64,000 bases of DNA from the NCBI GenBank assembly GCA_016219965.1, contig JACRJM010000009.1, forward strand, positions 76,553-140,552. Reading direction: 5' to 3'. The stretch is from Candidatus Schekmanbacteria bacterium. GTDB lineage: Bacteria > Schekmanbacteria > GWA2-38-11 > J061. The notes under the pieces are model-generated. The model was not told the origin of the DNA and ran no database searches. It saw only the letters and a list, made by a program, of their open reading frames with translations. The position numbers were made by a program, and so were the translations under genes. Shown here piece by piece: positions 39,589-58,960 of the stretch; position 1 is the first letter of the stretch; each line of letters begins with the position of its first letter.

Positions 39589-39632
39589 AAACGCAATAAA
39601 GGTATATTGTTTGCAAAATGGATTGATATTCA

Positions 39633-42661: not shown

Positions 42662-43333
42662 ATGGATGATGAAACACATATAATGTTTGAGAATATATTT
42701 GCGGACCTTTTCACTCCTGAGGAGATTGAAAAAAGGAAGAATCTCTGGAAAATATTGTGCCGTGATTTTTTCGAGAAATTCATTAAAAAAGACGACGTGG
42801 TTCTTGACCTTGGAGCAGGTTACTGTGAGTTTATAAATAATGTGAGATGCGGCAAAAAATATGCTGTTGATCAGCACACTCACCCTCAGAAATATGCGAA
42901 CAGTGACGTTAAAGTGATTATCTCAAATAGTTCTTCCATCACTGAGATTGAAGATGAATCAATCGATGTGGTTTTTGTAAGCAACTTCTGGGAGCATATG
43001 AGGGACAGGGATGAGCTTAAGGCTACGCTAAGGGAAGTAAGACGGATGATGAAAAAGGATGGCAGGCTTATAGTTCTTCAGCCCAATATCAGGTATTGTT
43101 ATAAGCTCTACTGGGATTTTTTTGATCATGTTATTCCCTTGAGCCACAAGAGTATGGAGGAAATATTGAAGTTTATGGGATTCAGGATAGAGTACCTTAA
43201 ACCTAAGTTTCTTCCTTACAGCACAAAGTCTCGTTATCCGAAACATCCGTTTTTTGTAAAAACTTATCTGAAACTTCCTTTCCTCCATTATATTTTCGGA
43301 AAGCAGATGGTTGTCGTAGCGGGAAAGAGGTAA
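42662..43333 (+). CDS. Class I SAM methyltransferase (paired with B12 radical SAM)
   Basis: 223 residues from ATG 42662, with AAGAGGAG eight bases upstream; earlier in-frame starts lie within the epimerase gene. Motif I VVLDLGAGYCEFINNV near residue 47, YAVDQHTH, then IDVVFVSNFWEHMRDRDEL and LIVLQPNIRYCYK. The pattern is that of type 11 methyltransferases. Acceptor unknown. Three bases separate it from the following B12 radical SAM gene; three similar neighbourhoods follow in this locus. Confidence 0.83.
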   Translation: MDDETHIMFENIFADLFTPEEIEKRKNLWKILCRDFFEKFIKKDDVVLDLGAGYCEFINNVRCGKKYAVDQHTHPQKYANSDVKVIISNSSSITEIEDESIDVVFVSNFWEHMRDRDELKATLREVRRMMKKDGRLIVLQPNIRYCYKLYWDFFDHVIPLSHKSMEEILKFMGFRIEYLKPKFLPYSTKSRYPKHPFFVKTYLKLPFLHYIFGKQMVVVAGKR

Positions 43334-43336
43334 AAA

Positions 43337-44842
43337 ATGAAAACTCTTTTTATATCAAAGGGACAGGAAACATTAGCAGTAGAATACCTCGCTTCAGTGC
43401 TGAAATCGAAAGGGCATACTGTTAAGCTCCTGTTTGATCCCGGCATCGACGATAACATGGGATTCTGGGATATTTCGCTTCTGAGAAAGATTAATCCCAA
43501 TAACCTCTTCATTGAAGAAATGATATCCTTTGCTCCTGATCTTGTCGCATTATCTTGTCCTCTCAATATGTATCCCTTTGTAAGAAACTCTGCGCGCATG
43601 GTTAAAGAGCATCTGGGTGATGTCCCGGTTCTTGTAGGGGGCGGCCATCCTACGACGGCTCCGGAGTATGTCCTTTCAGATCCGAATATAGATATGGTCT
43701 GTATCGGCGAGGGTGAAGAGCCAATAGCAGATTTGGCGCAGAGGATTGAAGATAAAAAGAGTTATAATGACGTAGAAAACCTATGGGTGAAAACTGCGAG
43801 CGGTATTGTAAAAAATCCTATCAGACCCCTTTTGCAGGATCTGGATTCTCTGCCTTTCCCTGACAGGGAGATTTTTTATTCTTATGGCTGCTTTGCCGGA
43901 AATCTCTATTTTATAGCAGGCAGAGGATGTCCTTTCCAGTGCACCTATTGCTGTCAGCACACATTCAAGGAGATATACAAGGGAAAAGGAAAGTATATCA
44001 GGCTACGCAGTGTTGATAATATCATGAAAGAACTTGAATATGGTGTAAGAAGGTACAATGTGAAACACATCCATTCAGAGGATGATACATTTGCTTTTGA
44101 CCATGACTGGACTAAAGAATTCTGCAGGGAATATAAGAAAAGGATACATGTTCCGTTTTACTGCCATGTAAGACCTGGAACATTAAATGAAGGAGTTCTG
44201 GCTGACCTTGCTGACGCAGGTTGTGTAGGGGTTTTCTTCGGGGTTGATTGCGGCAATTATGAAATGAGAAGGGATATATTGAAACGCCCTGTAACAGATG
44301 ATGTCATTATTGAACAGGCAAAGCTTGTTAAAAAAGCAGGAATAAAGATTTCATGCTCATCCATGTTCGGACTTCCCGGAGAGACTCCCGGGCAGATGTA
44401 TGAGACATTCAATATGATAAAAGGGATTGAAAGCGATTTTGCCTATGCCACAATCTATTATCCGTTTTATGGGACGGAACTCTTCCAGTACGCAGTTGAC
44501 AACGGCTATCTTGATGAAAAAACTGTTGCATTGATAAAGGATGGGAAAGGATCTCTCTATGGTGAGCCTCTTATAAAGACTGAATACAAGGACACGGCAA
44601 TGCTTCTTAAGAATATGCTGCCGTCTTATATGAGGTTTAAAGGATTGAGGTTCATTTTTGATTTAATCTTAAAAAGCAAATCATGTTCTCTGGCAAAATT
44701 AATTAATCTGTTTTTCACACCTTTTTCTTATGCCTCGATCGGAAAATTGAAAAGAAAAGAAATGGCTTCTGTATTCTTGAAGTTTATTGCCTATAAATTG
44801 AGAATTATTTCTCTCCATAAGCTGGCGGCAGGAAAAGAATAA
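43337..44842 (+). CDS. B12-binding radical SAM protein (tandem copy 1)
   Basis: 501 residues. N-terminal cobalamin domain with FISKGQETLAVEYLASVLKS, SCPLNMYPFVRNSAR and VGGGHPTTAPEYVL; radical SAM motif GRGCPFQCTYCCQHTFK near 194; KGKYIRLRSVDNIMKELE, EDDTFAFDHDW, CHVRPGTLNEG and FGLPGETPGQM follow. The last 80 residues are hydrophobic and basic, suggesting membrane or lipid contact. It shares order and many motifs with the next gene, and with 55381-56805, and clearly arose by duplication. Role: perhaps methylation of a lipid-linked sugar or lipid; inferred from context. Confidence 0.88.
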   Translation: MKTLFISKGQETLAVEYLASVLKSKGHTVKLLFDPGIDDNMGFWDISLLRKINPNNLFIEEMISFAPDLVALSCPLNMYPFVRNSARMVKEHLGDVPVLVGGGHPTTAPEYVLSDPNIDMVCIGEGEEPIADLAQRIEDKKSYNDVENLWVKTASGIVKNPIRPLLQDLDSLPFPDREIFYSYGCFAGNLYFIAGRGCPFQCTYCCQHTFKEIYKGKGKYIRLRSVDNIMKELEYGVRRYNVKHIHSEDDTFAFDHDWTKEFCREYKKRIHVPFYCHVRPGTLNEGVLADLADAGCVGVFFGVDCGNYEMRRDILKRPVTDDVIIEQAKLVKKAGIKISCSSMFGLPGETPGQMYETFNMIKGIESDFAYATIYYPFYGTELFQYAVDNGYLDEKTVALIKDGKGSLYGEPLIKTEYKDTAMLLKNMLPSYMRFKGLRFIFDLILKSKSCSLAKLINLFFTPFSYASIGKLKRKEMASVFLKFIAYKLRIISLHKLAAGKE

Positions 44843-44846
44843 CCGT

Positions 44847-46322
44847 ATGAGGATACTTTTCTTTGCAACCGGACAGGAACTGCTTGGCATCGAATACCTT
44901 TCGGCAGCACTTAAAAGGGACGGACATGAAGTTGAGCTTGCCTTTGATCCGGGTCTCGGTGATTTTCTTGGATTCATAGATATTCCACTGTTGAAGAATC
45001 TGACAAATGAGAACTGGTACCTTGAAAAAGTCAGGTCCTTCAAACCTGATCTTGTAGCATTCAGCTGTCTTACAAATCTCTATTCCTTTGCCCGTGATAA
45101 AGCTAGGCTCATAAAAAAACATTTTAATATTCCAGCTGTAATCGGCGGTATCCACCCTACTATTCTCCCCGAGTATGTTCTTGAGAATCCTGATTTTGAC
45201 ATGCTCTGCATTGGAGAAGGGGATGAGGCCATGCCGGAACTTGTCCGGAAGATGGAGAAAGGAGAAGATTATTTCGACACCCGCAATTTTTGGTTCAGGC
45301 GCAACGGGGAGGTTGTAAAAAATCCGGTGCGGCCTCTTATACAAGACCTTGATTCACTTCCTTTCGCAGACAGAAGTCTTTTTTATAAGTATGGATGTTT
45401 CACCGGGACGCTCTATTTTATTTCCGGCAGGGGATGCCCATTTACATGTAGTTACTGCTGTCATCATTTTCTTCAGAAGAAGTACAGCGGGCTTGGAAAG
45501 TACGTGCGTAAAAGGAGTGTTGATAACGTCATCAAAGAAATAAAGGAATGCCTTGGCAGGTACAAAGTAAAATCTCTTTATTCCATGGATGATCTTTTTA
45601 CCATCAATACGGCCTGGATAGAGGAATTCACCGATAAGTACAGAAAAATTTCGAACTTGCCAATTTACTGCCATGTAAGACCGGGAACACTTAACAGGGA
45701 GATTGCTTCAGCACTTGCAAAAGCAAACTGCACGTCTGTTTTCTTAGGTATAGATTCAGGAAGCCCCTTTATCAGGACAAACATAATGAACAGAAATATA
45801 AAGGATGAAGACATATATTCGAATGCCGCACTTCTGCAGGAATTCGGAATAAAGATAACGACATCTCTTATATTCTGCATGCCTGACGAAACTGACAGCC
45901 AGATGATAGAGTCCATTGAAATGGTAAGAAAGCTCAAGACTGATTATCTTTATACTTATATATATTATCCTTTCCCAAATACGGAATCATACAATTACTG
46001 TGTTGAAAAAGGCCTTGTAGATGCTGATACAATGGAAAAAGTAAAAAGAGGAGAAGGCTCGTTCCACAAGAAGCCGCTCATAAAATCTGAATATGCTGAA
46101 CTTGCACAGGTATTGAAAAACATGGCACCCCTTTATGTGAAGTTCCCTTTTCTTAAACCTCTCATATGGTTTATTATGAAGAGACGCTGGATCAGGGCGA
46201 GTGAAATAGTTTTCTTTCTCACTGCTCCTATTACGTATGCGCACTTTGGGCGGGCAAAAATAAAGGAATTTTTTTCTCTTATGAGAATGGCTTTTCTGGC
46301 AAGATTAAGGACGAGGGGATGA
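44847..46322 (+). CDS. B12-binding radical SAM protein (tandem copy 2)
   Basis: 491 residues, four bases after copy 1. Parallel motifs: FFATGQELLGIEYLSAALKR, SCLTNLYSFARDKARL, IGGIHPTILPEYVL, GRGCPFTCSYCCHHFLQ, GKYVRKRSVDNVIKEIKE, MDDLFTINTAWIEEF, CHVRPGTLNREIA. The second acidic segment reads CMPDETDSQM where copy 1 has GLPGETPGQM, so the strand near SAM differs. The C-terminus is again hydrophobic. The pair may act on different positions or chain lengths. Its stop overlaps the next methyltransferase start. Confidence 0.88.
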   Translation: MRILFFATGQELLGIEYLSAALKRDGHEVELAFDPGLGDFLGFIDIPLLKNLTNENWYLEKVRSFKPDLVAFSCLTNLYSFARDKARLIKKHFNIPAVIGGIHPTILPEYVLENPDFDMLCIGEGDEAMPELVRKMEKGEDYFDTRNFWFRRNGEVVKNPVRPLIQDLDSLPFADRSLFYKYGCFTGTLYFISGRGCPFTCSYCCHHFLQKKYSGLGKYVRKRSVDNVIKEIKECLGRYKVKSLYSMDDLFTINTAWIEEFTDKYRKISNLPIYCHVRPGTLNREIASALAKANCTSVFLGIDSGSPFIRTNIMNRNIKDEDIYSNAALLQEFGIKITTSLIFCMPDETDSQMIESIEMVRKLKTDYLYTYIYYPFPNTESYNYCVEKGLVDADTMEKVKRGEGSFHKKPLIKSEYAELAQVLKNMAPLYVKFPFLKPLIWFIMKRRWIRASEIVFFLTAPITYAHFGRAKIKEFFSLMRMAFLARLRTRG

Positions 46323-46831
46323 TGGTTGTGGAAAAGAAGCTTTCATTTGCAAACAACCAGAAATTCAAATTCTTTTTCCCTTATCTCAGGAAAGAGGACA
46401 GAATAATTGACCTCGGGTGCGGGAATATGTGGCTTACAAACTATCTCCGCAGTATGGGTTACAATTGTGTGGGTTTTGATTCAGCACCTCCGGCAGATAT
46501 TGTAGGGGACATAAAAACATACAGATTTAGCTCGTCAAGCTTTGACACTGTCATAGCTCTCGAGATTGTTGAACATGTGGACTGCATAGCAGAGATAAAA
46601 AGGATGTTAAAGCCAGGCGGCCTGCTTATTGTTTCAACGCCTGTGCCGCACTTTGATTTTCTTTTGAGGATAGGAGAGATTTTTTCAATTTTTCAGAAGA
46701 GAACATCACCGCATTCTAACCTTTTTTACATCGAGAAAATCCCCATGAAGCTTGTAGATAAAAAAAATCTGTGCGGGCTTGTGCAGTGCGGTGTTTTTAT
46801 CAATGAAACATCCCGCGGTGGAAATAGATGA
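46319..46831 (+). CDS. Small SAM methyltransferase
   Basis: 170 residues, beginning with ATGATG overlapping the previous stop; AGGGG upstream. Motif I IIDLGCGNMWLTNYL near residue 30, VGFDSAPPADIVGD, then FDTVIALEIVEHVDCIAEIKRMLKPGG and LLIVSTPVPH. It is shorter than most family members and lacks much of a substrate-binding cap; the end after residue 130 is unusual (DKKNLCGLVQCGVF). Paired with a B12 radical SAM gene. Overlaps the flavoprotein gene by four bases. Confidence 0.8.
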   Translation: MMVVEKKLSFANNQKFKFFFPYLRKEDRIIDLGCGNMWLTNYLRSMGYNCVGFDSAPPADIVGDIKTYRFSSSSFDTVIALEIVEHVDCIAEIKRMLKPGGLLIVSTPVPHFDFLLRIGEIFSIFQKRTSPHSNLFYIEKIPMKLVDKKNLCGLVQCGVFINETSRGGNR

Positions 46832-48126
46832 CAGTTGCCATAATAGGAGGCGGCCTTACCGGCCTTACGGCAGCCTATAGACTTTCTTTGAGCGGCGAGA
46901 AAATCATTCTTTTTGAGAAGGACACTGAACTTGGCGGACTAGCCGGAGTAGTAAAAATAAATGACTTTTACCTTGAGAAATATTATCATCACATATTCAC
47001 CTCAGACACAGATGCCGTTGCTCTTATAAATGATATCGGGCTTTCAGAAAATCTTCAGTGGCTTGAAAGCAGGATGGGACTTTATTTCAGAAAAAAGATT
47101 TATTCCTTTGGCACTCCTGTTGACCTTCTTAAGTTCAAACCGCTTTCTCTTATTGATAAACTGCGGTTCGGGCTAACTACGCTTTTCCTAAAATCCTATT
47201 CAAACTGGCAAAAGCTTGAAAACATCACAGCAGTCGAGTGGATGAATAAATATGCCGGCAGGAATGTCTGTAAGGTTATATGGGAACCGCTTCTTGTCGC
47301 GAAGTTCGGTAAAAACTATGACAAGATATCAATGACATGGTTATGGGGGAAAATAAAGCTTCGCGGAAATTCACGGTCTGACAAGGATAACAGGGAGAGA
47401 CTGGGCTATCTCATGGGAAGTTTCGGCCTACTCATTAATAAGCTTGGTGAGGAAATAGAAAATAATGGAGGAAAAATATTTAAAGGTGCTCCGGTTCAAA
47501 AATTGGATCAGGGAGAGAACGGCAAATGGATTATTTCATCGAAAGGTGGGACATACGAGGCTGATAAGGTTCTTTTAACAGTGGCGCCTGCAGAGATTCT
47601 GAATTTATATTCCGGGTTTCCGGAGGACTACAGAAGAAAGATCGGGAATATCGATTATGCAAGTACGGTCTGCATGATACTTATCCTTAACCGTTCTTTT
47701 ACTTATAATTATTGGGAAAACATAAGTGATAACAAGATTCCCTTTGGAGGGGTGATTGAACATACTAACTTTATACATCCAAGCCATTATAATAATCTTA
47801 ACATCCTTTACATATCAAATTATCTGTACAAGGACGAGTCTCTTTATAATATTCCTGACAAAGAGCTCCTAGAAGAGTATATTAATCATCTGAAGGAAAT
47901 GAACCCTGAGTTTTCTCAGGACTGGATTATAGATTACCATGTATTCAGGGATGAATTCGCACAGCCAATAATGAAGCTTAATTACTCGAAAATGATCCCG
48001 GACATTAAGACTCCTGCAAAAAATCTTTTTATTGCGAATATGGCACAAATATATCCTGAAGACCGCGGGATGAATTATGCTGTCAGGCTCGCCGGCGAGG
48101 CAGTAAAAATAATTTTAAAAGGATAG
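46828..48126 (+). CDS. FAD oxidoreductase, UDP-galactopyranose-mutase/amine-oxidase type
   Basis: 432 residues. FAD-binding start VAIIGGGLTGLTAAYRLS, LFEKDTELGGLAGVVKIN, then LEKYYHHIFTSD and the C-terminal FAD contact EDRGMNYAVRLAGEAV. Such proteins in exopolysaccharide clusters resemble both UDP-galactopyranose mutases and protoporphyrinogen-oxidase-like enzymes. The mutase would make a furanose donor; oxidation or reduction of a polyprenyl or sugar is another option. It starts with ATGA overlap, so translationally coupled. No membrane helix. Confidence 0.8.
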   Translation: MTVAIIGGGLTGLTAAYRLSLSGEKIILFEKDTELGGLAGVVKINDFYLEKYYHHIFTSDTDAVALINDIGLSENLQWLESRMGLYFRKKIYSFGTPVDLLKFKPLSLIDKLRFGLTTLFLKSYSNWQKLENITAVEWMNKYAGRNVCKVIWEPLLVAKFGKNYDKISMTWLWGKIKLRGNSRSDKDNRERLGYLMGSFGLLINKLGEEIENNGGKIFKGAPVQKLDQGENGKWIISSKGGTYEADKVLLTVAPAEILNLYSGFPEDYRRKIGNIDYASTVCMILILNRSFTYNYWENISDNKIPFGGVIEHTNFIHPSHYNNLNILYISNYLYKDESLYNIPDKELLEEYINHLKEMNPEFSQDWIIDYHVFRDEFAQPIMKLNYSKMIPDIKTPAKNLFIANMAQIYPEDRGMNYAVRLAGEAVKIILKG

Positions 48127-48130
48127 CTAA

Positions 48131-49993
48131 GTGGCTGCTGAAAAGCCTCGTTTTAAAGAGTATTTAATCATAGCAGGACTTGCCCTTAACTCTCTCCTCT
48201 TAAACGGTTACAGATATGACTATAACCTGCTCGTTTCCTGGCTGAACAGCAATAACAATCGCGAGCTTTTTACCAGAGATCTCTTTGTCAATACGATAGA
48301 CAAGTTTGAGATAAGTTTTTTTTATAATATCGTTGAAAAACTTTCAGCGTTTGTTGATCTGCCAATCCTCTTTTTTCTGATTCACATTTTCACTCTTTAC
48401 CTTGCCTGTATTTTTCTCTTCAGGTTGTCATCTTTTATTGCAGACAGCAACATTGCCGGCTATTTGTCTGTTCTGCTGTTTTCCATGGGGATACGTGAAT
48501 GGGTGGTCGGTGCTCCGCAGATCTATTATTTCTTTGTCCATCATAGTGCTTTTTCTCTTCCATTTTTCTTCCTGGCTCTAGAGCTTTTCCTGAGGGGCAA
48601 TGTAGTCGCCTCTTTATTTCTCCTCGGAATATTGAGCAACTTTCAGATGATGTATGCTTCCTTTGTCGGAACGGCAATTGTCTTTGCTCTTCCATTGAAG
48701 ATGAAGCATGAAGATTTAACTTTTAAAAGGCTTTTTTACGGAGCAGCAGCATTCATTATTCCTGCAATGCCTGTAATATTGAAAGTTCTTACTGGCGCAA
48801 ATGGATTTACTGTAGGAGATGAATGGTACAAAGTTGTGAAATGGGTTCTTTGGATACATATCTATCCTTCGATGTGGGGATTTGAGATGTACAGGAACTT
48901 TATTGTTTATATTATATGTTTTACCGTTGCATTCCGCTCATACCCTGCAGGCTTGATAAAGAGTACGATAAAATCAATGCTGGCAGGGGTGGCTTTTCTA
49001 TGTTTTTTAGGGACTTTCTTCGTTGAGATAGTACCTGTTCCGCTCTTTATCCAGCTTCATCTCTGGCGCAGTACATGGATCTTTTTCATTCTTTCTATAC
49101 CGGTTTTTTCTAATTTTATCTTAAGGACATTTGCTGAGAGTCTGCTTTCAAAATTTGCGGCAGTCTCAACTGCACTTGTCTTTGCAGGATATGTTACAAC
49201 CAGATATAATGACCCGCGCTGCTTTTTCTATACCCCCTATTGGATGCTTCCATTCTTTCTTCTCCTCTCACTTGTAAGCGGAAGTTTCAATGTTCCTGAA
49301 GGTTTCAGAAAAACAGGGAGGATATTGATTGGTATTTTAGCAGTTGTTATTATGGCTGAAAGTACAATTCCTTATATCAGAGGTTCTTTTTTTGATATAG
49401 GAATGTCCCGTCTTTTGATGTTTGTTGCCGCCCTATTGTTTTCATCTCTATTATCTCTTCCGGCAGTAAAAAGCTTTAACGGGAATAAAAGATTTGCTTT
49501 TACGTCGCTCCTTTGTGTCTGCATAAGCTTGCTTGTTATATCAGTTAGAGGGGGAGCATATTTACCTATTAAAGGTTATTATGATGGACGCATGGGAGAA
49601 TGGATTGAGCTTCAGCTTTATGCACGTGACCACACTCCTGTTGATTCACTTTTTATTGTTCCTCCATACAGGGCGAGTCCTGACTTCAGATTTTATTCAC
49701 ACAGGGCAAGCCTTGGGGACTGGGTTGACGGAGGTTTTGCGATATTTTTCGGCAATGACTATGCCAAGGAATGGCTTTCAAGGATGAATTCCATCGGCCT
49801 TGACGGGAGTACTTTATATGATGAAGGATTGGATCTTGAAAGAAAACAATATGCCGAGCTGAATGAGAAAAAAGTACTTGATGCCGCTAGGCGTTTCGGT
49901 GCAGATTATGTAGTGACAGAGAAAGGTTCTGTGCTTCCATTTAAAAAGATTTATGGGAACAGCAGATTCGTGCTTTATAAGATTTTCAATTAG
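48131..49993 (+). CDS. Large multi-pass membrane protein, GT-C-like
   Basis: 620 residues from a GTG at 48131 after AAAAGGAT. The first 510 residues hold about a dozen helices; the first loops have NRELFTRDLFVNTIDKFEIS and GAPQIYYFFVHHSAFSLPFFF. The C-terminal 110 residues are soluble (RDHTPVDSLFIVPPYRASPD, GADYVVTEKGSVLPFK), like the final domain of membrane proteins in this locus. No clear DE/DD motif, so the GT-C call is weaker. Likely sugar transfer or polymer assembly at the inner membrane. Confidence 0.6.
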   Translation: MAAEKPRFKEYLIIAGLALNSLLLNGYRYDYNLLVSWLNSNNNRELFTRDLFVNTIDKFEISFFYNIVEKLSAFVDLPILFFLIHIFTLYLACIFLFRLSSFIADSNIAGYLSVLLFSMGIREWVVGAPQIYYFFVHHSAFSLPFFFLALELFLRGNVVASLFLLGILSNFQMMYASFVGTAIVFALPLKMKHEDLTFKRLFYGAAAFIIPAMPVILKVLTGANGFTVGDEWYKVVKWVLWIHIYPSMWGFEMYRNFIVYIICFTVAFRSYPAGLIKSTIKSMLAGVAFLCFLGTFFVEIVPVPLFIQLHLWRSTWIFFILSIPVFSNFILRTFAESLLSKFAAVSTALVFAGYVTTRYNDPRCFFYTPYWMLPFFLLLSLVSGSFNVPEGFRKTGRILIGILAVVIMAESTIPYIRGSFFDIGMSRLLMFVAALLFSSLLSLPAVKSFNGNKRFAFTSLLCVCISLLVISVRGGAYLPIKGYYDGRMGEWIELQLYARDHTPVDSLFIVPPYRASPDFRFYSHRASLGDWVDGGFAIFFGNDYAKEWLSRMNSIGLDGSTLYDEGLDLERKQYAELNEKKVLDAARRFGADYVVTEKGSVLPFKKIYGNSRFVLYKIFN

Positions 49994-50011
49994 GAGTAGT
50001 ACAATACGGAT

Positions 50012-50821
50012 ATGGTAAAAACATCAAGAGATACAGCTTGCGAGCTTTATACGAAGGAATATTTTCTAAGCCAGAACTGCGACGGCTATGAAGATTTCAT
50101 TAAAGACAAGGGACTTTCCTATATCAAGTGGAAGCAGGTTTCAATGCTTGAGGTAAAGCCTGGGAATATTGTTCTTGATGTTGGATGCGGGCGGGGAGAA
50201 CTTCTTTATAACTGTCTGAGTAAAGGTGCAGTTGCAATTGGCATTGATTATTCTTCTTCATCTGTGGAGATATCACGGGAGACTTTGAAAGGAGAGGGGA
50301 GGTCTATTGTCTTAAGGGCATCAGCGGACAGCCTTCCCTTCACCGACAGCAGCATTGACAGGATCATCATGGGTGATGTGCTTGAGCATATTTCTCCGGA
50401 GGAAGCGCGCCGCTTCATAAGCGAGACATCAAGAGTACTAAAAGAAGGGGGGATTGTCCTGATTCACACAAGTCCCAATATCTATTTCATGAAGTTTGCC
50501 TTTCCTCTGATAAAGTTCTTTTTTCGCGTCACTGGAAAAACAGAAATGATAAAGAATTTTTTAAAGCATGTTACAAAGGATAATTACATCTACCACATGA
50601 AGGAGTACAACCTCTTCAGCTTAAAAAGATTGGTTGCAGGTTCAACTCTTAACTTTAAAGTCTGGCTCGACAGAGACCTGATGCGTGGAGGAGAAAGCCG
50701 TTTTACTTCGAATCTTGCCGAGTCTAAATTTTTCAGATTTATCGAAAAAATCCTGTCCATGTATCCCTTTGTACTGTTCTTCTCCAACGACCTTTGGGCA
50801 AAAGGTACAAAGCGTTCTTAA
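50012..50821 (+). CDS. Class I SAM methyltransferase
   Basis: 269 residues. Motif I IVLDVGCGRGELLYNCL near residue 50, VAIGIDYSSSSVEISRE, then LPFTDSSIDRIIMGDVLEHISPEEARRFISE and GGIVLIHTSPN. Type 11 methyltransferase pattern; the C-terminal 100 residues are basic and partly hydrophobic, as for substrates at the membrane. It belongs to the set of small methyltransferases placed beside glycosyltransferases and B12 radical SAM genes. Acceptor unknown. Confidence 0.85.
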   Translation: MVKTSRDTACELYTKEYFLSQNCDGYEDFIKDKGLSYIKWKQVSMLEVKPGNIVLDVGCGRGELLYNCLSKGAVAIGIDYSSSSVEISRETLKGEGRSIVLRASADSLPFTDSSIDRIIMGDVLEHISPEEARRFISETSRVLKEGGIVLIHTSPNIYFMKFAFPLIKFFFRVTGKTEMIKNFLKHVTKDNYIYHMKEYNLFSLKRLVAGSTLNFKVWLDRDLMRGGESRFTSNLAESKFFRFIEKILSMYPFVLFFSNDLWAKGTKRS

Positions 50822-50825
50822 ATAA

Positions 50826-51857
50826 ATGAATACAAATATCCCTCTTGCCTCAGTAATAGTTGTAAACTGGAACGGCAGGGAGTTTATATTTGAATGTATT
50901 GATTCGCTCCTAGCCCAGTCCTGGCAGTCTCTCGAAATAATTGTTGTTGATAATGGCTCAACTGACGGCTCTGATATTGAGCTTGTAAACAGATACGCCA
51001 GCCGGATACGTTTGATAAAAAAAGATTTTAACACTGGCTTTGCTGCCGGAAACAATACAGGCATAAGAGAGGCAAAAGGCGAGTTCATATTTCTCTTAAA
51101 CAGTGATGCTGTTGCAGAGAAAAACTGGATAAAAAATATTGTTGAGGCGGGAGAAAGAAATCCTCACTCAGGGATGTTCGCAAGTAAAATACTTCAATAT
51201 GACAACAGGGAGATAATCGATAATACCGGACATCTCATTTACAGGGACGGGCTTAACCGCGGACGCGGACGGCTTGAAAAAGATTTCGGACAATTTGACA
51301 TAGAAAGCGAGATTTTTTTTCCAAGCGGTTGTGCCGCCTGCTACAGGAAAAAAATGCTGGATGATACCGGCCTGTTCGATGAGGATTTCTTTGCATACGG
51401 AGATGACACTGATATAGGTTTAAAATGCAGGGTGGCCGGATGGGGATGCACCTATGTTCCAACTGCCATTGCTTATCACCGCTATTCCGGTTCCAGCTCT
51501 GCTTATTCCAAACTCAAGGCTTTCCATGTTGAAAGAAACAGAGCATGGATTTCAGTAAAATATTTTCCTCCCCTTGCCCTTGCGATAAGTCCGTTTTATA
51601 CTCTTTTAAGATTTTCACTACAGGCGTACGGCGCTCTTTCAGGAAAGGGAGCAGCAGGGAAGTTCAGGGCAGAATATTCTGCATTTGATCTTATCATTAT
51701 TCTGCTAAAAGCTTATGCTTCGGCAATAAATGGGCTTCCAAAGATGCTGGAAAAAAGAAAGAAAATTAAGAATATCTCAAAAGTGAGTTCTAAGGAATTT
51801 AACAGATGGCTTAAAGAATTTACAATAAGTGCAAGAGAGATTGCATTAAAAGATTAA
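50826..51857 (+). CDS. GT2 glycosyltransferase (rhamnosyltransferase-like)
   Basis: 343 residues. ASVIVVNWNGREFIFECIDSL, VDNGSTDGSDIEL, TGFAAGNNTGIREAKGEFIFLLNSDAVAE, and FFPSGCAACYRKKMLDDTGLFDEDFFAYGDDTDIGLKCRVAGW form a full GT-A set of the WbbL/rhamnosyltransferase kind. LLNSDA gives the metal-binding acidic residue. The C-terminus is amphipathic. It likely extends a lipid-linked oligosaccharide. Four bases from the methyltransferase and six from the next radical SAM gene. Confidence 0.9.
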   Translation: MNTNIPLASVIVVNWNGREFIFECIDSLLAQSWQSLEIIVVDNGSTDGSDIELVNRYASRIRLIKKDFNTGFAAGNNTGIREAKGEFIFLLNSDAVAEKNWIKNIVEAGERNPHSGMFASKILQYDNREIIDNTGHLIYRDGLNRGRGRLEKDFGQFDIESEIFFPSGCAACYRKKMLDDTGLFDEDFFAYGDDTDIGLKCRVAGWGCTYVPTAIAYHRYSGSSSAYSKLKAFHVERNRAWISVKYFPPLALAISPFYTLLRFSLQAYGALSGKGAAGKFRAEYSAFDLIIILLKAYASAINGLPKMLEKRKKIKNISKVSSKEFNRWLKEFTISAREIALKD

Positions 51858-51863
51858 ATTAAA

Positions 51864-53249
51864 ATGAAAATACTTCTCCTTAATCCTCCGGCAAGACAGA
51901 AAAGTCATGAGAGCATTGTTGTCCCTCCTCTCGGGCTTGCATATCTTGCATCTTCCGCAAAAAAGGAAGGCTTTCATGTTTCCATTCTCGATGCCTTTGC
52001 GCTTGGCATGGACTGGAATGAGCTTGAATCAGCAGTTGAGAAGCTCTCTCCTGATATACTGGGGATAGGCGGCATGAGCCCTGTCATAGATACGACTTTC
52101 AGGGCTGTAAAATTACTCCGGGGCAAAGTAAAGACTATTATAATGGGCGGCCCCCATATTACCGCCTTTGGTGCCGGAATATTTGAACAATGTCCCGAGA
52201 TAGACATAGGTGTTTACGGGGAAGGAGAGAGGACATTTGTCGAGCTTCTAAAATCAATATCAGAGAGGAAAACTTTTAACCATGTTGATGGGGTCATAAC
52301 CAGAGAGTTTACCGGAAAACCAAGAGAGATGATAAAAGATATTGATTCAATCCCTTATCCAAGCCGCGATGGACTTCCAAATGATAGATACCGTTACCTT
52401 TTCGGATGGAAAGGAAAGATGACGACTATGTTCACTTCGCGGGGATGTCCTTATCACTGCGTCTTCTGCGATAAATCGGTGTTCGGTACAGGCTGGAGGT
52501 CGAGGTCGCCTGAAAATATTATTTCCGAGATAGAAGAGGTTGTAAATCTCTACGGGACGAGGAATATCATATTTTATGATGATCTTTTCACACTTCAAAA
52601 GGAAAGGGTCCTTAAACTTTGTGCACTGATAGAGGAGCGTAAGCTTAAAATCCAGTGGAAATGCGAGGGACGCGCTGACAGGATAGACAGGGAAATGCTG
52701 AGAACTATGAAAAAAGCAGGGTGCCAGGTTATTGCCTTTGGTGTTGAAAGCGGCAACCAGAAGGGCCTTGACTATCTTAAGAAATCCATGGACCTCGGAA
52801 AAGTGAAAGATGCTTTTTCCATGGCAAAAAAGGAAGGAATAGAGACGATTGCGTATTTCATTCTTGGAATACCCAACGAGACGTTTGATGAGGAAAAGAA
52901 GACCGTTGAATTTGCCCTGGAAATAGATCCTACCTATGCTCAGTTCAGTGCCCTATCCCCCTATTACGGGACATGGCTGTATGATGAAGCATTGAAGAAT
53001 GGCTGGTACCGAGAGATAGATGCACAGAATCCGGCTGACAAAGATCTTAAAAGACCTGTAGTTGTCTCGGAACTCTGGGATGAGGACAAACTAAAAGAAA
53101 TAGTCCGTTTTGCCTACAGGAGGTTTTACTTCAGGACCGGATATGTGTTAAGAAGGCTTAGATATTTTGCATCTCCTTCGAAATTTATTGAGCTTTTCAT
53201 GTCGGGACTCTCTTTTTTGAGGTGGTATTTTATTGGAAGGCGGAATTGA
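51864..53249 (+). CDS. B12-binding radical SAM protein
   Basis: 461 residues. Cobalamin domain MKILLLNPPARQKSHESIVV, PLGLAYLASSAKKEGFHVSI, IIMGGPHITAFGAGIF; radical SAM motif SRGCPYHCVFCDKSVFG near 190; FYDDLFTLQKERVL, FGVESGNQKGLDYLKKS and FILGIPNETFDEE. It differs in detail from the three-member subfamily at 43.3, 44.8 and 55.4 kb. The C-terminal end FIELFMSGLSFLRWYF recurs, decayed, at 60.9 kb. Reaction unknown; methylation of a glycan or lipid intermediate is the best guess from context. Confidence 0.88.
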   Translation: MKILLLNPPARQKSHESIVVPPLGLAYLASSAKKEGFHVSILDAFALGMDWNELESAVEKLSPDILGIGGMSPVIDTTFRAVKLLRGKVKTIIMGGPHITAFGAGIFEQCPEIDIGVYGEGERTFVELLKSISERKTFNHVDGVITREFTGKPREMIKDIDSIPYPSRDGLPNDRYRYLFGWKGKMTTMFTSRGCPYHCVFCDKSVFGTGWRSRSPENIISEIEEVVNLYGTRNIIFYDDLFTLQKERVLKLCALIEERKLKIQWKCEGRADRIDREMLRTMKKAGCQVIAFGVESGNQKGLDYLKKSMDLGKVKDAFSMAKKEGIETIAYFILGIPNETFDEEKKTVEFALEIDPTYAQFSALSPYYGTWLYDEALKNGWYREIDAQNPADKDLKRPVVVSELWDEDKLKEIVRFAYRRFYFRTGYVLRRLRYFASPSKFIELFMSGLSFLRWYFIGRRN

Positions 53250-53332
53250 AAAACTTTTGTTCTGGCTGTCAGATAAGTAAGAAGATAATTGATGCGAAAA
53301 AAAAGTAAACTTACAGAGTGCGATCATACAAT

Positions 53333-54526
53333 ATGAATATTAATAAAATGAAAGCCATTGATAAGTGGCTTGGAATTCCTCTCTGCGTATTTCTCACCAT
53401 ATTCAATAAAGTCTGGATATTCCGTAAATCTGCAAAAAGAAATAATGCGGTTAAGAAAATTTTAGTTATGAAATACTTTGGAATAGGAAGCATTTTGCTT
53501 GCTACGCCGGCTTTAAGGGCATTGAGGAAAGGGTATCCGGAGGCAAAAATAACATTTCTTACATTTTCAGGCAATCAGGAGATCTGTAATCTTTTAAAGG
53601 TTGCAGATGATTATATATATCTTTCCACAACTGACTTTTCAGCATTCTTTTTTCAGACTCTTAAAACCTTATATAGGATAAGGAAGGAACATTTTGATAT
53701 ATCTATAGACATGGAGTTTTTTTCCAAGTTCTCCACAATAATGAATTATCTTACCGGAGCTCAAAGAAGAATAGGTTTTTTTTCCCGGCAGATGTGGAGG
53801 GGAAATTTATTGACTGATCATATCTATTATAACCAGCACAGACATATAGTTGACATCTTCCTGGCCCTTGTTGCTGTTTTGGGTATCAATACAAAAGATA
53901 AAGAGGTGGAAAGAATTAAAACTTCAGATGAAGAAAAAAAATATATCAGAGAATTCCTTAAATCAGAGGGTGTTGGTGAAAAAGATTTGCTGATAGGCGT
54001 AAATGTTAATGCCAGCGATATGTGTTATGAAAGGAAATGGCCGGGAGAAAGTTTTGCAAAGTTGATATCCAGATTAATAACTTCTCATGATGCCAAAGTA
54101 GTTTTAATAGGGGGTAAAGAGGATAAAGGATATGTTGAAAAATTAGTTGAAGGAATTGACTTCAAAGAAAAGATTTTAAATTTAGCAGGAAGATTAAATC
54201 TTACCCAGCTCTTGGCTTTTTTAAGCGAAGTAAAGTTCTTCATAACTAATGATAGCGGACCGCTCCACCTTGCTGTTTCGTTGGGAATCCCTACTGTGTC
54301 TTTTTTTGGTCCAGAAACTCCATCTCTTTATGGACCTCCCATAGATGATGGCAACAACCTTGTATTTTATAAAAACCTTTATTGTAGCCCATGCCTGAGT
54401 GTCTATAATGTTAAGACTGCAGTTTGTAATGGGGATAACCAGTGCTTGAAGCAGATCTCTTTTGAAGAAGTTTACAAGGCAATCGAGGAAAAATATTTTT
54501 CTCATGAATATGATAGGCTGCCATAG
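53333..54526 (+). CDS. GT9 glycosyltransferase (heptosyltransferase-like)
   Basis: 397 residues from ATG 53333; a GTG at 53318 is also in frame. GT-B fold pattern of ADP-heptose:LPS heptosyltransferases: KKILVMKYFGIGSILLATPALRALRKGYP near 43-71, ERKWPGESFAKLISRL, VVLIGGKEDKGYVEKL, and ITNDSGPLHLAVSLGIPTVSFFGPETPSLYGP. The last part has several Cys (YCSPCLSVYN, AVCNGDNQCLKQI). It probably adds a heptose or similar sugar to an LPS-like core or glycolipid. The 83 bases before it hold nothing visible. Confidence 0.88.
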   Translation: MNINKMKAIDKWLGIPLCVFLTIFNKVWIFRKSAKRNNAVKKILVMKYFGIGSILLATPALRALRKGYPEAKITFLTFSGNQEICNLLKVADDYIYLSTTDFSAFFFQTLKTLYRIRKEHFDISIDMEFFSKFSTIMNYLTGAQRRIGFFSRQMWRGNLLTDHIYYNQHRHIVDIFLALVAVLGINTKDKEVERIKTSDEEKKYIREFLKSEGVGEKDLLIGVNVNASDMCYERKWPGESFAKLISRLITSHDAKVVLIGGKEDKGYVEKLVEGIDFKEKILNLAGRLNLTQLLAFLSEVKFFITNDSGPLHLAVSLGIPTVSFFGPETPSLYGPPIDDGNNLVFYKNLYCSPCLSVYNVKTAVCNGDNQCLKQISFEEVYKAIEEKYFSHEYDRLP

Positions 54527-54528
54527 AA

Positions 54529-55380
54529 ATGAACAACTCACCATGCATTATCTGCGGTACAGAGAAAAAGAAAAGTGTGTATTTAATGGATGGTTACCAT
54601 CTGGTTAAATGCGCTTCCTGCGGATTAGTGTCTGCAGATCCTCAACCTGATGATGAAGCGCTAAGGGGCTTTTACAATGAAAATTATTATGATAGCTGGG
54701 GCGGATTAAACAGGTTGGAAGCAGTAAGAAAGATGAAGATGTCGACTTTCAACAAGTGGTTTGATGAGCTTGAAAAGATAAAAAAAAACGGAAGGATGCT
54801 GGATATAGGATGCGCATTTGGGTTCTCCCTTGAGGCCGCAGAGAAGAGAGGATGGGATGTTTACGGTATGGAGCTTTCGGGATTTTCCGCATCCGTAGCA
54901 AAAGAAAGATTTGGAGAAAGAATCAAAGAAAGTTTAAGTGAATTTGATGACGGCTTCTTCAATGTAATAACAATGTTTGATCTCATCGAACATCTGCCTT
55001 CACCTGTTGGTATTTTAAAGGAAATAAAAAGAATATTGGCTAATCAGGGAGTCGTGCTACTCAGTACCCCCAATATAAAAAGCCTTTCATCAAGACTGAT
55101 GGGAAAAAAATGGTTTCATGTCAAATGTGAACACCTCTACTATTTTGATCCTGACACCATAAGGCTTTTTTTTCATAAAGAGGAATTCAATGTGGTTAAA
55201 GTAATTCCTGCAGTAAAGGCTTTTAACCTTGACTATATCCGGTTCCAGCTCAGCACCTATCAATTGCCATTGATGACACCACTTACAAATGGCTTATGCA
55301 AAATTCTGCCTGAATGGTACCTCAATAAGAACGCCTTTTTCCGGATCGGTGAAATGCTTGTTTTTGTAAGGGCGCTGTAA
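54529..55380 (+). CDS. Zinc-finger SAM methyltransferase
   Basis: 283 residues. N-terminal C-x2-C pairs (CIICG at residue 6, CASCG near 29) form a putative zinc site, followed by FYNENYYDSW. The class I core has MLDIGCAFGFSLEAAEKRGW near 90, YGMELSGFSASVAKERFG and MFDLIEHLPSPVGILKEIKR. Zinc-finger methyltransferases of this layout include sugar C-methyltransferases such as those making branched deoxysugars, so a nucleotide-sugar substrate is plausible. It directly abuts a B12 radical SAM gene, with no gap. Confidence 0.85.
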   Translation: MNNSPCIICGTEKKKSVYLMDGYHLVKCASCGLVSADPQPDDEALRGFYNENYYDSWGGLNRLEAVRKMKMSTFNKWFDELEKIKKNGRMLDIGCAFGFSLEAAEKRGWDVYGMELSGFSASVAKERFGERIKESLSEFDDGFFNVITMFDLIEHLPSPVGILKEIKRILANQGVVLLSTPNIKSLSSRLMGKKWFHVKCEHLYYFDPDTIRLFFHKEEFNVVKVIPAVKAFNLDYIRFQLSTYQLPLMTPLTNGLCKILPEWYLNKNAFFRIGEMLVFVRAL

Positions 55381-56805
55381 ATGGCAAAGATAGCCTTTGT
55401 CCAGAACCTCGCATATGAATATCTGGGTGTTATGTACCTTTCATCTGTCTTGAAAAAAGCAGGGCATGATGTTGAAATATTCATCGGTGATGGCGGGAAA
55501 CGTTTGATTGAAGAAGTAATTGAATATGATCCCGGCATTGTAGCTTTTTCCTGCACTACTGGACTGCATCGGTGGTGCCTCAAAATGGCAGAAGATTTAA
55601 AAAAAAGAAGCAGGGCATTCATGGTGCTTGGCGGTCCGCACCCGACATTCTTTCCCGAGATGATAATGTCGCCCGGTGTTGACGGAGTATGTATTGGCGA
55701 GGGGGAAGCCCCGTTACTTGAACTTGCCGGCGGGATTTCAAATAGTGAGGATATAAGTGGAATAAGAAACTGGTGGTTGAAATTACCCGGTGAGAATATC
55801 ATAAAAAATGAGATAAGGAATCTCATTGAAGACCTGGATTCACTTCCATTCCCGGATAGAGAGCTATATTCCAGGAGATATCCTTCTATAAATAAATCCC
55901 AGAAGGCATTTATTACTGCCAGAGGATGTCCGTTTAACTGCTCCTTTTGCTTCAACCATGCCATGAAAAAGATTTATGCAGGAAAAGGAAAATATGTAAG
56001 AAGAAGAAGTATTAAGAATGTAATTGAGGAAATAAAGGAAGTAAAAAATAATTATAATCTTAAAGTAGTATATATTCAGGATGATACTTTCACACTTGAT
56101 AAAGAATGGATCAGGGAATTTTCGGATGTATACAAAAGTGAAATTGCCCTCCCTTTTATCTGCCTGATCAGGGCTGACACAACTGATGAAGAAACGATAA
56201 GATTATTAAAAAATGCAAATTGCACTAGGGTTTTTTTTGGCATTGAGTCAGGGGACGAAGGTTTAAGGAATAATCTCCTTTCAAAAGGAGTGACTGATAA
56301 GGAGATATTTGAAACCGCGGCATTACTAAAGAAATATAAAATACCTTTCAGGACATATAATATGCTGGGTCTTCCCGGAGAAACGATTGAACAGGCTTTT
56401 AAGACTATAGATATAAATGTGAAAATTGGGACAGATTACCCCTGGTGTTCTTTGTTTCAGCCTTATCCACGGACAGTTCTTGGAGAATCCGCAGTAACAA
56501 TGGGATATTTAGATAGAGAGAGTAATATAGCCGAATCCTCTTTTTTTAGGACAACTGTTTTAAAATCTCCTCAAAGCAGGGAGCTCGCAAATTTACAAAA
56601 ATTATTTTTCTGGAACGTAAAAATCCCCATCTTTAAACCGCTTATTGGTAAACTAATCAAGTTACCGTCAAATTTTGTTTTTGATATATTTTTTCTGATT
56701 GGATATGGATATTGTTTTTTAAGAAGTGAAAGCTTTACTTTAAAGGAACTCATGACAATTGGTGTGAACAATCTTAAAAGATTCTTTTTTTCTTCCTCTT
56801 CTTAA
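55381..56805 (+). CDS. B12-binding radical SAM protein (third member of the subfamily)
   Basis: 474 residues. Same subfamily as the tandem pair at 43.3 and 44.8 kb: AFVQNLAYEYLGVMYLSSVL, LGGPHPTFFPEMI, DLDSLPFPDREL, ARGCPFNCSFCFNHAMKK, GKGKYVRRRSIKNVIEEIKE, IQDDTFTLDKEW, NMLGLPGETIEQ. CHVRPGT of the pair is replaced by CLIRADT. The C-terminus is hydrophobic. It starts on the base after the methyltransferase stop, the closest of the pairings in the locus, so a joint reaction sequence is likely. Confidence 0.88.
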   Translation: MAKIAFVQNLAYEYLGVMYLSSVLKKAGHDVEIFIGDGGKRLIEEVIEYDPGIVAFSCTTGLHRWCLKMAEDLKKRSRAFMVLGGPHPTFFPEMIMSPGVDGVCIGEGEAPLLELAGGISNSEDISGIRNWWLKLPGENIIKNEIRNLIEDLDSLPFPDRELYSRRYPSINKSQKAFITARGCPFNCSFCFNHAMKKIYAGKGKYVRRRSIKNVIEEIKEVKNNYNLKVVYIQDDTFTLDKEWIREFSDVYKSEIALPFICLIRADTTDEETIRLLKNANCTRVFFGIESGDEGLRNNLLSKGVTDKEIFETAALLKKYKIPFRTYNMLGLPGETIEQAFKTIDINVKIGTDYPWCSLFQPYPRTVLGESAVTMGYLDRESNIAESSFFRTTVLKSPQSRELANLQKLFFWNVKIPIFKPLIGKLIKLPSNFVFDIFFLIGYGYCFLRSESFTLKELMTIGVNNLKRFFFSSSS

Positions 56806-56810
56806 GAAAA

Positions 56811-58442
56811 ATGCTTAAAAAAACTACATATATCTTCTGTTGCATTCTTATTGCAGAGTTTGCCTTCTTTCTATGGTCTAACTATAGACTTACATCTACT
56901 CTCAATCTCCCAACTGATGACGGCTATATTTATTTAAATTATATAAAAAATGCGGCTGAAGGGCATTTTTTTGAATATAACATTGGAGAAAAAAGTGGAG
57001 GGGTAACGGGTTTTTTATGGTATGTGGTACTGACTCCTGTTTTTTTTATTTCACGGTTTTTTTTCAGCGATATTTATAAGGCTCTTCTTTTTGCCAATTA
57101 TTTTTCAGGTCTTGTTCTCCTTGTTTTGTCGCTTATTGTTCTTCTGCGGTTATCTTATTATCTGTCAGAGTCTGAGTATGTACCTGTTGTATGCGGTATA
57201 TTGTTCATAGTGAATTCAAAGCTGATCTGGGGAGCTTTGAGCGGAATGGAAGTACCTCTTACAGCTTTTATGATTCTCATATCATTAAATTATTTTTTTA
57301 AAGATTATGACAAAGGGAAATTCAAGTGGAGTCTGTTATTATTGGGATTATGCGGATGGACAAGAGAAGAGCTTTATATCCTTCCGTCTCTGGCTGTAAT
57401 TTTCCTTTTCCTTGAGCATTTCGGTATTGTATCAAGAATTTTTGGCATTGATATCGATAACAAAAGAATCAGTTTACGTGACTTGATTAAATCCATAATC
57501 ATTCCTGCTCCGATAGCAGTTATCCCGCTTTTCCTATACTGGTATTTTACAGGACTTCTATTCCCAACCCCATTTTATATCTATGTTCCGGAGGGGTATA
57601 ATATAAACAATCTTTGGGCCGGCTATCTTGCTATGGCTGATCAGCTTGACCTATATCATATATTTTTATATCTCTTTGCTCTCATTGGGTTGGTCTTTAT
57701 CATTGCAAAGAAAATCAGACTTTTGGACAATTTATTCTCAGCAACATTTGTTTTTACATTTTTTACCTGGAAGGCTTTAAAATCTATTTATCTCGGGACG
57801 GTTTTTAGATATGTAACACCTTATGATCCGTTAATTTCTATTGCAGCCTCGATCGGTTTGTTTGCATTAGGTGAATCTATTTATAGAAATGTAACAATGG
57901 ATATAAGATACAGAAATAAATCCAACTACATTAAAGCGGCTTTAATAATTCCATTTAGTTTTGTTATTTGTTACTTTTCTTTTATAACATTTGACTTTGC
58001 TCAAAAAGAATACCCAACCCATGTACAAAATATAAATGATGCTGTTGTCAGTGTAGCAGAATGGATTTCAGTCAACTGTCCAGGCAATGCAGTGGTAGCC
58101 GCAGTTCCTATCGGAGGCATAAAACTTTATTCCAACAGAACGACAATAGATATAGACGGGCTTACAACTCACTACATGATGGGCCGCTCTCCAGGGAATA
58201 AAAGCGATTTTAGGTACTGGATAAATCTTCTTGAATACATGAAAAGAAGAAGGTCAGACTATATAGTCTATTTTAGAAGCAGCTTCATAAATGAGGCTCC
58301 ATTCCCATTTTTTAAGCTCCTCCATTCGTTTCCCATTCCCAATAATATAATAGTTCCATCTTCTCCGGTTGATGTTTACATGGTTGACTGGGCCTACTAT
58401 AATAAAATAATGTCAAACATTATGGAACGGACAGCTAATTGA
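56811..58442 (+). CDS. GT-C membrane glycosyltransferase
   Basis: 543 residues with about a dozen membrane helices. First loop NLPTDDGYIYLNYIKNAAEG near 32-51 with the DD motif, then FFEYNIGEKSGGVTGFLWY, GALSGMEVPLTAFM and CGWTREELYILPSL. These match the GT-C group that includes arabinosyl- and mannosyltransferases using polyprenyl-phosphate sugars. C-terminal 150 residues form a soluble domain. Five bases after the radical SAM gene. Confidence 0.82.
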   Translation: MLKKTTYIFCCILIAEFAFFLWSNYRLTSTLNLPTDDGYIYLNYIKNAAEGHFFEYNIGEKSGGVTGFLWYVVLTPVFFISRFFFSDIYKALLFANYFSGLVLLVLSLIVLLRLSYYLSESEYVPVVCGILFIVNSKLIWGALSGMEVPLTAFMILISLNYFFKDYDKGKFKWSLLLLGLCGWTREELYILPSLAVIFLFLEHFGIVSRIFGIDIDNKRISLRDLIKSIIIPAPIAVIPLFLYWYFTGLLFPTPFYIYVPEGYNINNLWAGYLAMADQLDLYHIFLYLFALIGLVFIIAKKIRLLDNLFSATFVFTFFTWKALKSIYLGTVFRYVTPYDPLISIAASIGLFALGESIYRNVTMDIRYRNKSNYIKAALIIPFSFVICYFSFITFDFAQKEYPTHVQNINDAVVSVAEWISVNCPGNAVVAAVPIGGIKLYSNRTTIDIDGLTTHYMMGRSPGNKSDFRYWINLLEYMKRRRSDYIVYFRSSFINEAPFPFFKLLHSFPIPNNIIVPSSPVDVYMVDWAYYNKIMSNIMERTAN

Positions 58443-58477
58443 ATTTATTTGAGGAGGGATGAAGTCTGGAGATTGCG

Positions 58478-58960
58478 TTGAAAGATTACGTGAAAAAAGT
58501 ATTATCTCTTTCTTCTGATAAGGATTATTTTTTTTTCAATTTTGTCGCTCTTTTCTCAGGGTTTGCTTTCGGCGTTTATACTTTTCTTTTTTTAGTGTAT
58601 TTCTTCCCAATTAAATTTAATCAACCTGTAAATGATTTAGGAATAATCGGGCTTACAAATCTTTATGGATATTCAAAACAGATGGAAATCTTTTATTATT
58701 TTTCCTCTTTGGTTGTTATAACCGCTGCAGGTGTTATGGCATGGTTTGCGTGGATTATCTATTCTGCCATCTTGGCAAAATATTTTGCCGTATCAGTTGA
58801 AAAAGCCTGCCGTTTTTCCTCTTTTGATTTTACGCCCTCAATCGTATCTTTATTGCTGATGCTTGTTTATAAACCGGCTTTTAACATTTCTTTGATTTTC
58901 CTTTTGGTTATTATTGCGGCTATAAAGGCTTCCAACCTTTTTATACTCAAGAGAAAATGA
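58478..58960 (+). CDS. Small integral membrane protein
   Basis: 160 residues from TTG 58478, with GGAG seven bases upstream. Four or five hydrophobic segments, no catalytic motif. It resembles no family I know. It may be an accessory subunit for the neighbouring GT-C enzymes. The ATG of the next gene overlaps its stop, implying coupled translation. Confidence 0.6.
   Translation: MKDYVKKVLSLSSDKDYFFFNFVALFSGFAFGVYTFLFLVYFFPIKFNQPVNDLGIIGLTNLYGYSKQMEIFYYFSSLVVITAAGVMAWFAWIIYSAILAKYFAVSVEKACRFSSFDFTPSIVSLLLMLVYKPAFNISLIFLLVIIAAIKASNLFILKRK

Follow-up and report, generated by a model that had tools for sequence, protein, structure and literature searches.

Cobalamin (B12)-dependent radical S-adenosylmethionine (SAM) enzymes catalyze methylation, ring contraction, ring formation and thioether formation (PMC13331322). 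The B12-dependent radical SAM enzymes include MgmA, the methyl-coenzyme M reductase glutamine C-methylase (PMC11796369), and hpnJ is required for the cyclitol ether head group of hopanoids (PMC5462960). Here we analyzed a 64,000-nucleotide stretch from Candidatus Schekmanbacteria bacterium (GenBank assembly GCA_016219965.1, contig JACRJM010000009.1, positions 76,553 to 140,552 of the forward strand; hereafter, the window), in which four class I methyltransferases (MT1–MT4) and four B12-binding radical SAM proteins (R1–R4) are encoded on the plus strand within 14.2 kb. A preliminary description, made from the sequence alone, had read these eight genes as four repeated methyltransferase and radical SAM pairs inside a glycan locus. 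Comparison with other genomes revealed that the conserved unit is one methyltransferase, a duplicated B12 radical SAM gene and a family 2 glycosyltransferase (GT2) resembling lipid-sugar synthases, rather than four repeated pairs.

The eight genes, their positions, their tight spacing and their glycosyltransferase setting were all borne out by Pfam calls and coordinates (Table 1). MT1–MT4 score above the Methyltransf_11 cut-off, R1–R4 score above the cut-offs of both PF02310 (B12-binding) and PF04055 (Radical_SAM), and the CX3CX2C cluster motif is intact in all four radical SAM proteins. The same co-directional run also holds an NAD epimerase, an FAD oxidoreductase, two GT2s, a family 9 glycosyltransferase (GT9) and several polytopic membrane proteins, with intergenic gaps of -4 to +6 bases except for 18 bases 5' of MT3 and 68 bases 5' of GT9. 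MT1-R1, R2-MT2 and MT4-R4 are adjacent in the window, and a single GT2 separates MT3 from R3. A promoter and terminator scan returned counts equal to the shuffled expectation, so operon boundaries cannot be drawn from it.

Conservation of the duplicated B12 radical SAM genes and their neighbors

A set consisting of a DPMS-like GT2, MT1 and the tandem R1-R2 genes, together with a SPASM-type radical SAM protein, recurs in four genomes: the window's own (G000), one of the same family (G001) and two distant ones (G145, a Thermodesulfobacteriota metagenome-assembled genome, locus L001; and G151). In G001 (L034), the order is GT2-SPASM-epimerase-MT1-R1-R2-MT2-membrane protein, after which the contig ends; MT1 adjoins R1/R2, and identities are 85% for GT2, 60% for SPASM, 39% for the epimerase (in the same place), 67–70% for MT1, 74% for R1, 77% for R2 and 71% for MT2. 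In G145, the order is GT2a-B12(R4-like)-GT2-SPASM-MT1-B12(R3-like)-R1-R2, plus a membrane protein (GT2 64–65%; SPASM 52%; MT1 51%; R1 56%; R2 55%), and in G151 it is SPASM-membrane protein-B12(R4-like)-GT2-MT1-two B12 genes-R1-R2 (GT2 likewise 64–65%; MT1 55%; R1 51%; R2 60%), the SPASM protein near the module being diverged. In the two distant genomes, which hold one methyltransferase against four to five B12 radical SAM genes, one or two of the latter thus intervene between MT1 and R1/R2. Their R4-related genes have no adjoining methyltransferase, and the epimerase is absent at the module in both.

The preliminary description had made its case depend on homologs in other genomes being linked to methyltransferases or glycosyltransferases. 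This linkage was found: R1/R2 orthologs lie with MT1 and a DPMS-like GT2 in three other genomes, and R3 and R4 orthologs adjoin GT2, GT9 and membrane proteins in G002, a genome of the same order.

G002 (L038, L054) also indicates how the locus is built. There, MT2-FAD-membrane protein-MT3-GT2-R3-GT9-R4-three membrane proteins are kept in order at 44–72% identity, and the SPASM ortholog, MT1, R1 and R2 are missing together between MT2 and a DPMS-like GT2 (69% identity); SPASM-like genes occur only at 22–24% identity and farther out, and MT4 is missing. Because G002 retains the genes running from MT2 to 58957, MT4 excepted, and MT1, R1, R2 and the SPASM ortholog are missing together at that place, the locus separates into modules that behave as units, which we call Module A (39.8–46.3 kb) and Module B (46.3–60.9 kb). 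The FAD gene lies between MT2 and the membrane protein gene in G000 and G002, not in G001. Homologs of the 36.7-kb membrane protein (37–40% identity) lie close to the module in both distant genomes, G145 and G151; in G002 one adjoins the DPMS-like GT2.

In a 68-row tree, R1 of the four module genomes formed one clade (support 100/99) and R2 a separate one (100/100), the two being joined at 100/95; R3 and R4 each grouped with their G002 ortholog (100/100 and 100/99, respectively). By this phylogeny, R1 and R2, which share one methyltransferase, are an old, retained tandem duplication that either predates the split of the genomes or moved between them as a pair. Sampling of 386 genomes around that of the window and of 297 around G145 found the tandem pair in these four only. 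A few further genomes (G105, G089, G002 and G238) have single R1/R2 relatives, and farther relatives adjoin a GT2 (L002, L003) or a Wzx-like flippase (G105). A pattern scan of the genome's contigs with R1 returned three loci only. The pair offers a natural test case for how work is shared out once a B12 radical SAM gene has been duplicated.

In all four module genomes (window 43337–46322, L034, L001 and L097), R1 and R2 carry an extra Cys directly after the cluster motif, CX3CX2CC[QH]H, which is absent in most relatives and may be an additional ligand. Another tandem B12 radical SAM pair lies elsewhere in the same genome (L046 16847–19872, contig C10), its members being near neighbors in the tree (branches of 0.12 and 0.17) on a long stem. 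The window itself holds two further B12 radical SAM genes (18926–20278 and 24928–26355), the second of them one gene away from an open reading frame (ORF; 23505–24365) that is methyltransferase-like in translation.

MT1 relatives elsewhere adjoin an FAD oxidoreductase (G473, G027, G611), a DPMS-like GT2 (G250) or a sulfatase with a non-orthologous B12 gene (G520, G079); given these other neighborhoods, MT1 alone was rejected as a module marker for being unspecific. A triplet of sulfatase, B12 radical SAM and MT1-like methyltransferase is kept in two genomes of different families (L132 6298–10331 and L133 8492–12677), its B12 genes not being R1/R2 orthologs in the tree. The window also has a sulfatase gene (33712–35763).

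Table 1 Genes of the locus and its flanks (window coordinates; TM, transmembrane)
Feature	Position	Strand	Evidence and conservation
Polytopic membrane protein, possible GT-C-type transferase	36693..38636	+	~8 predicted TM stretches
FkbM methyltransferase	38650-39633	minus
DPMS/AglJ-like GT2, probable polyprenyl-phosphate sugar synthase; conserved-module member	39821..40546	+	Glycos_transf_2
SPASM-type radical SAM protein; conserved-module member	40555..41634	+	Radical_SAM + SPASM
NAD-dependent epimerase/dehydratase	41658..42647	+	PF01370
MT1, class I SAM methyltransferase; conserved-module member	42662..43333 (ORF opens 42635)	+	Methyltransf_11 41 bits; start ATG 42662 agrees with start of 67%-identical homolog
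R1, B12-binding radical SAM, first of tandem pair	43337..44842	+	PF02310 + PF04055
R2, B12-binding radical SAM, second of tandem pair	44847..46322	+	PF02310 + PF04055; 45% identical to R1
MT2, short class I methyltransferase, 170 amino acids	46319..46831	+	Methyltransf_23/11
FAD-dependent amine-oxidase-like oxidoreductase, PRK07233 family	46828..48126	+	NF005560 514 bits, cut-off 252; 63% in G002
Polytopic membrane protein, putatively GT-C-type transferase	48131..49993	+	~9 predicted TM stretches; weak DUF6798 match; 52% in G001, 44% in G002
MT3, class I methyltransferase	50012..50821	+	Methyltransf_11 70 bits; 50% in G002, same place
GT2 between MT3 and R3	50826..51857	+	Glycos_transf_2; 61% in G002, same gene order
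R3, B12-binding radical SAM	51864..53249	+	PF02310 + PF04055; 57% ortholog in G002
GT9 (heptosyltransferase-like)	53318..54526	+	PF01075; 72% in G002; scores of 100-102 bits to heptosyltransferase II/III models, under cut-off
MT4, class I methyltransferase with N-terminal Cys motifs	54529..55380	+	Methyltransf_23 82 bits; no counterpart beside R4 in G002
R4, B12-binding radical SAM	55381..56805	+	PF02310 + PF04055; 69% ortholog in G002 without adjoining methyltransferase
Three membrane protein genes 3' of R4 (56811, 58478, 58957)	56811..60900	+	Predicted TM stretches; 62, 50 and 57% in G002, same order; no Pfam family matched for 56811 and 58957

The FkbM methyltransferase and the SPASM-type protein had been omitted from the preliminary description. 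Farther from the locus, a window ORF of 739 amino acids (3843–6062) resembles, in translation, a family B DNA polymerase, here in a bacterial genome, and the translations of two others (6115–6885 and 7195–8007) end in PEP-CTERM-like sorting signals.

Gene density and pairing in the locus

The 3.58-Mb genome contains 32 PF02310 matches and 38 PF13489/PF08241 matches, corresponding to an expectation of 0.13 B12-binding and 0.15 methyltransferase genes per 14 kb (Poisson P for at least four of ~1e-5 and ~2e-5, respectively, both uncorrected for the choice of this 14-kb stretch, which was picked for its cluster). The concentration of the two gene types is real; a pairing rule is not shown. When the order of the 12 genes was shuffled, at least three methyltransferases adjoined an R gene in 43% of orders and four distinct pairs fell within one gene in 21%, and for a wider block of 19 genes the corresponding values were 14% and 4%. 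Overall, shuffle P values ranged from 0.21 to 0.52 for the 12-gene stretch and from 0.04 to 0.17 for the wider block. Outside the locus, a methyltransferase lay within 3 kb of 3 of the 28 B12 genes versus ~1.7 expected. Across the whole genome, locus included, a GT2 was found within 3 kb of B12 genes more often than expected (7 of 32 versus 2.0).

These figures bear on the proposal that each methyltransferase and its B12 radical SAM neighbor form a working pair, four times over, and that every pair places several methyl groups on one sugar or lipid unit. Four methyltransferases do lie within one gene of four B12 genes; MT1-R1/R2 is retained in four genomes (three besides the window's) and MT3-GT2-R3 in two (one besides the window's). 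An MT1-like gene adjoins a B12 radical SAM gene in the two other-family genomes described above, and G002 (contig C37) carries two extra methyltransferase and B12 radical SAM pairs adjoining the orthologous locus, strictly alternating and with gaps <30 bases (L038 1049–5672; methyltransferases confirmed by Pfam). However, MT2-R2 recurs only in G001 and MT4-R4 in none of the genomes read; G002 keeps MT2 (70% identity) without R1/R2 and R4 without a methyltransferase, and G145 and G151 each set one methyltransferase against four or five B12 genes. Within the locus, pairing is also not beyond chance, and B12 genes outside it are not enriched near methyltransferases genome-wide. Repeated pairing as a system was thus not upheld, and we regard four working pairs as very unlikely.

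The shuffle result would also suit a composite envelope locus in which methyltransferases and B12 radical SAM genes accumulate independently, their adjacency meaning only that they belong to glycan metabolism. Gains and losses of single genes among G000, G001 and G002 fit this account (the FAD gene, MT4 at its place only in G000, and the extra pairs in G002). Nonetheless, distant genomes share the R1-R2-MT1-GT2 set at 50–65% identity although much of its surroundings differs. Without selection or joint transfer such persistence is difficult to account for, and independent accumulation appears quite unlikely. In radical-SAM-rich genomes such as this one, with its 32 B12-binding matches, methyltransferase adjacency needs both a shuffle and a synteny check before it is read as a system.

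A putative route to modified envelope sugars or lipids

Most likely, with a chance that we put at about even, this is a cell-envelope glycan or glycolipid cluster of a Gram-negative-type bacterium, with at least two sub-modules and a dedicated module that modifies a polyprenyl-linked sugar or lipid. LpxC is present in the genome, consistent with an outer membrane that contains lipid A. By ranking, the GT2 at 39821 stands nearest to AglJ and other polyprenyl-phosphate glycosyltransferases, and it is accompanied by polytopic membrane proteins. Module A (GT2, SPASM radical SAM, MT1 and tandem R1/R2) would act as a set: the GT2 would load a sugar on polyprenyl phosphate; R1 and R2 would carry out two successive or alternative radical changes of the lipid-linked sugar or its lipid (C-methylation, dehydration, or ring or skeleton rearrangement); MT1 would add one conventional methyl group; and a membrane glycosyltransferase of the 36.7-kb type would pass the modified product on. 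Direct results behind this scheme are the gene content, the domain assignments, the conserved neighborhoods, the old duplication of R1/R2 and the fold class; we infer polyprenyl phosphate as the carrier, the order of the steps, the target atoms and the product. Module B (MT2, FAD oxidoreductase, MT3, GT2, R3, GT9, R4 and membrane proteins, with MT4 optional) would then extend and decorate the glycan. If the conserved set acts together, it would give bacteria a means of modifying envelope sugars or lipids at carbon through cobalamin radical chemistry. A more specific version, in which Module A is an undescribed pathway whose duplicated cobalamin radical SAM pair, SPASM protein and class I methyltransferase remodel the carbon skeleton of a polyprenyl-linked sugar (several C-methyls or a ring change) before outer-membrane glycan assembly, we consider doubtful.

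Several results weigh against this envelope-glycan proposal. No locus protein reaches the curated cut-off of an enzyme with a known reaction, the FAD protein passing that of a family without an assigned function. The Module A GT2 misses the AglJ cut-off (69.7 bits versus 325; ArnC, 21 versus 529); AglJ is its nearest NCBIfam model by ranking only. The membrane proteins of the locus have no informative family, and a structure model of the 36.7-kb protein, built for its possible GT-C fold, was useless (predicted local distance difference test (pLDDT) 41.6). An R1/R2 relative in the window's genome (contig C7, L041) has neither a glycosyltransferase nor a methyltransferase beside it.

Alternatively, the B12 radical SAM enzymes may modify the lipid part, an isoprenoid or acyl chain, by methylation, cross-linking or cyclization, with the sugars as head group. 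HpnR, tetraether synthase and ladderane-type proteins act, or are thought to act, on lipid chains; R3 scores 135–144 bits to HpnR and ladderane lipid models, and R1–R4 all score to HpnJ/BchE. Relatives of the FAD protein include HpnE/CrtI-type isoprenoid enzymes (88 bits to the HpnE model), and a long helical region is predicted at the C terminus of R1. These scores are all, however, far below cut-offs, no fatty-acid or isoprenoid chain-building gene was recognized among the scanned locus proteins, and the genome, 98% complete, gave no PF13243 match at E 0.001 that would indicate a squalene-hopene cyclase. We consider lipid-part modification unlikely. Hopanoid modification itself was ruled out by the missing cyclase together with HpnJ and HpnR scores far under cut-off; the characterized cobalamin radical SAM enzymes of bacterial envelope lipids that we compared concern hopanoids.

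Comparison with known radical SAM and lipid-linked sugar systems

R1–R4 each combine an N-terminal B12-binding Rossmann domain and a radical SAM domain in one chain, the domain arrangement of class 1 cobalamin radical SAM enzymes. Among the four, fold assignment covers the AlphaFold 2 model of R1 (pLDDT 87.6), which is predicted to share the class 1 fold of OxsB, TsrM and TokK (Z 21–25 to OxsB, CysS, TsrM and TokK). Its structural matches were MgmA (Z 27.5), AprD4 (26.2), CysS (25.1), OxsB (24.9) and TsrM (24.2). The fold cannot decide whether R1 binds cobalamin, because AprD4 scores like the cobalamin enzymes, and a methylase versus non-methylase call from the fold failed, with MgmA and AprD4 nearly tied.

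MgmA (TIGR04014, PDB 9ccb) is the best structural match of R1, over 381 residues at 20% identity. It differs in that its substrate is a protein, whereas R1 and R2 sit in a glycan locus and score 90–94 bits against its cut-off of 360. The radical SAM diol dehydratase AprD4 (NF033070, PDB 6fd2), which acts on the pseudosugar paromamine, is the best solved-sequence relative of R1/R2 (E 8e-25 to their profile, with MgmA the other closest solved sequence). AprD4 is not a methylase; its Cys motif differs from the R1 CX3CX2C in the alignment, and R1–R4 score 55–138 bits versus 500. Methylation of unactivated carbons, the reaction proposed in the preliminary description, stands as one possibility among several, because AprD4 is a dehydratase and OxsB a ring-contracting enzyme: by sequence and fold, R1 is as near to AprD4 as to methylases. 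None of R1–R4 reached a curated NCBIfam cut-off among the C-methylase families compared (HpnR, MgmA, tryptophan 2-C-methyltransferase and KedN5; HpnP, Fom3 and GenK were outside the direct comparison), the best scores being R3 to HpnR (135 bits versus 650) and R2 to MgmA (94 versus 360).

The best NCBIfam matches of R1–R4, over most of their length, are to the HpnJ, BchE and ApyD group (TIGR03471, TIGR02026 and NF050148), where the likeness is a similar kind of job, the modification of a sugar on a lipid by hpnJ. Scores are far below the cut-offs (77–202 bits versus 481–750; for HpnJ, 113–195 versus 577.6), and the window's genome has no recognizable squalene-hopene cyclase. ArnC/ArnT-type and Agl-type lipid-linked sugar systems resemble the locus in having a polyprenyl-phosphate sugar synthase-like GT2 and polytopic membrane proteins, but the Module A GT2 falls below the AglJ and ArnC cut-offs, and we know of no B12 radical SAM enzymes in them. 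The preliminary description knew of no described system with this layout, and in the open-access literature we found no paper on B12 radical SAM genes in glycan loci with such a layout, a weak negative.

OxsB, CysS, TokK and TsrM have the domain order and fold of the R1 model at 14–19% identity, and the substrates known for them are nucleotide, acyl or amino-acid derivatives. The lower-face loop residue was set aside as a predictor of reaction, the OxsB and TokK residues falling two places apart in alignments. R1/R2 relatives retain an Asn in this loop, which follows strand 3, at a position matched through sequence alignments only; the corresponding residue is Asn in OxsB and Trp in TokK (PMC13331322).

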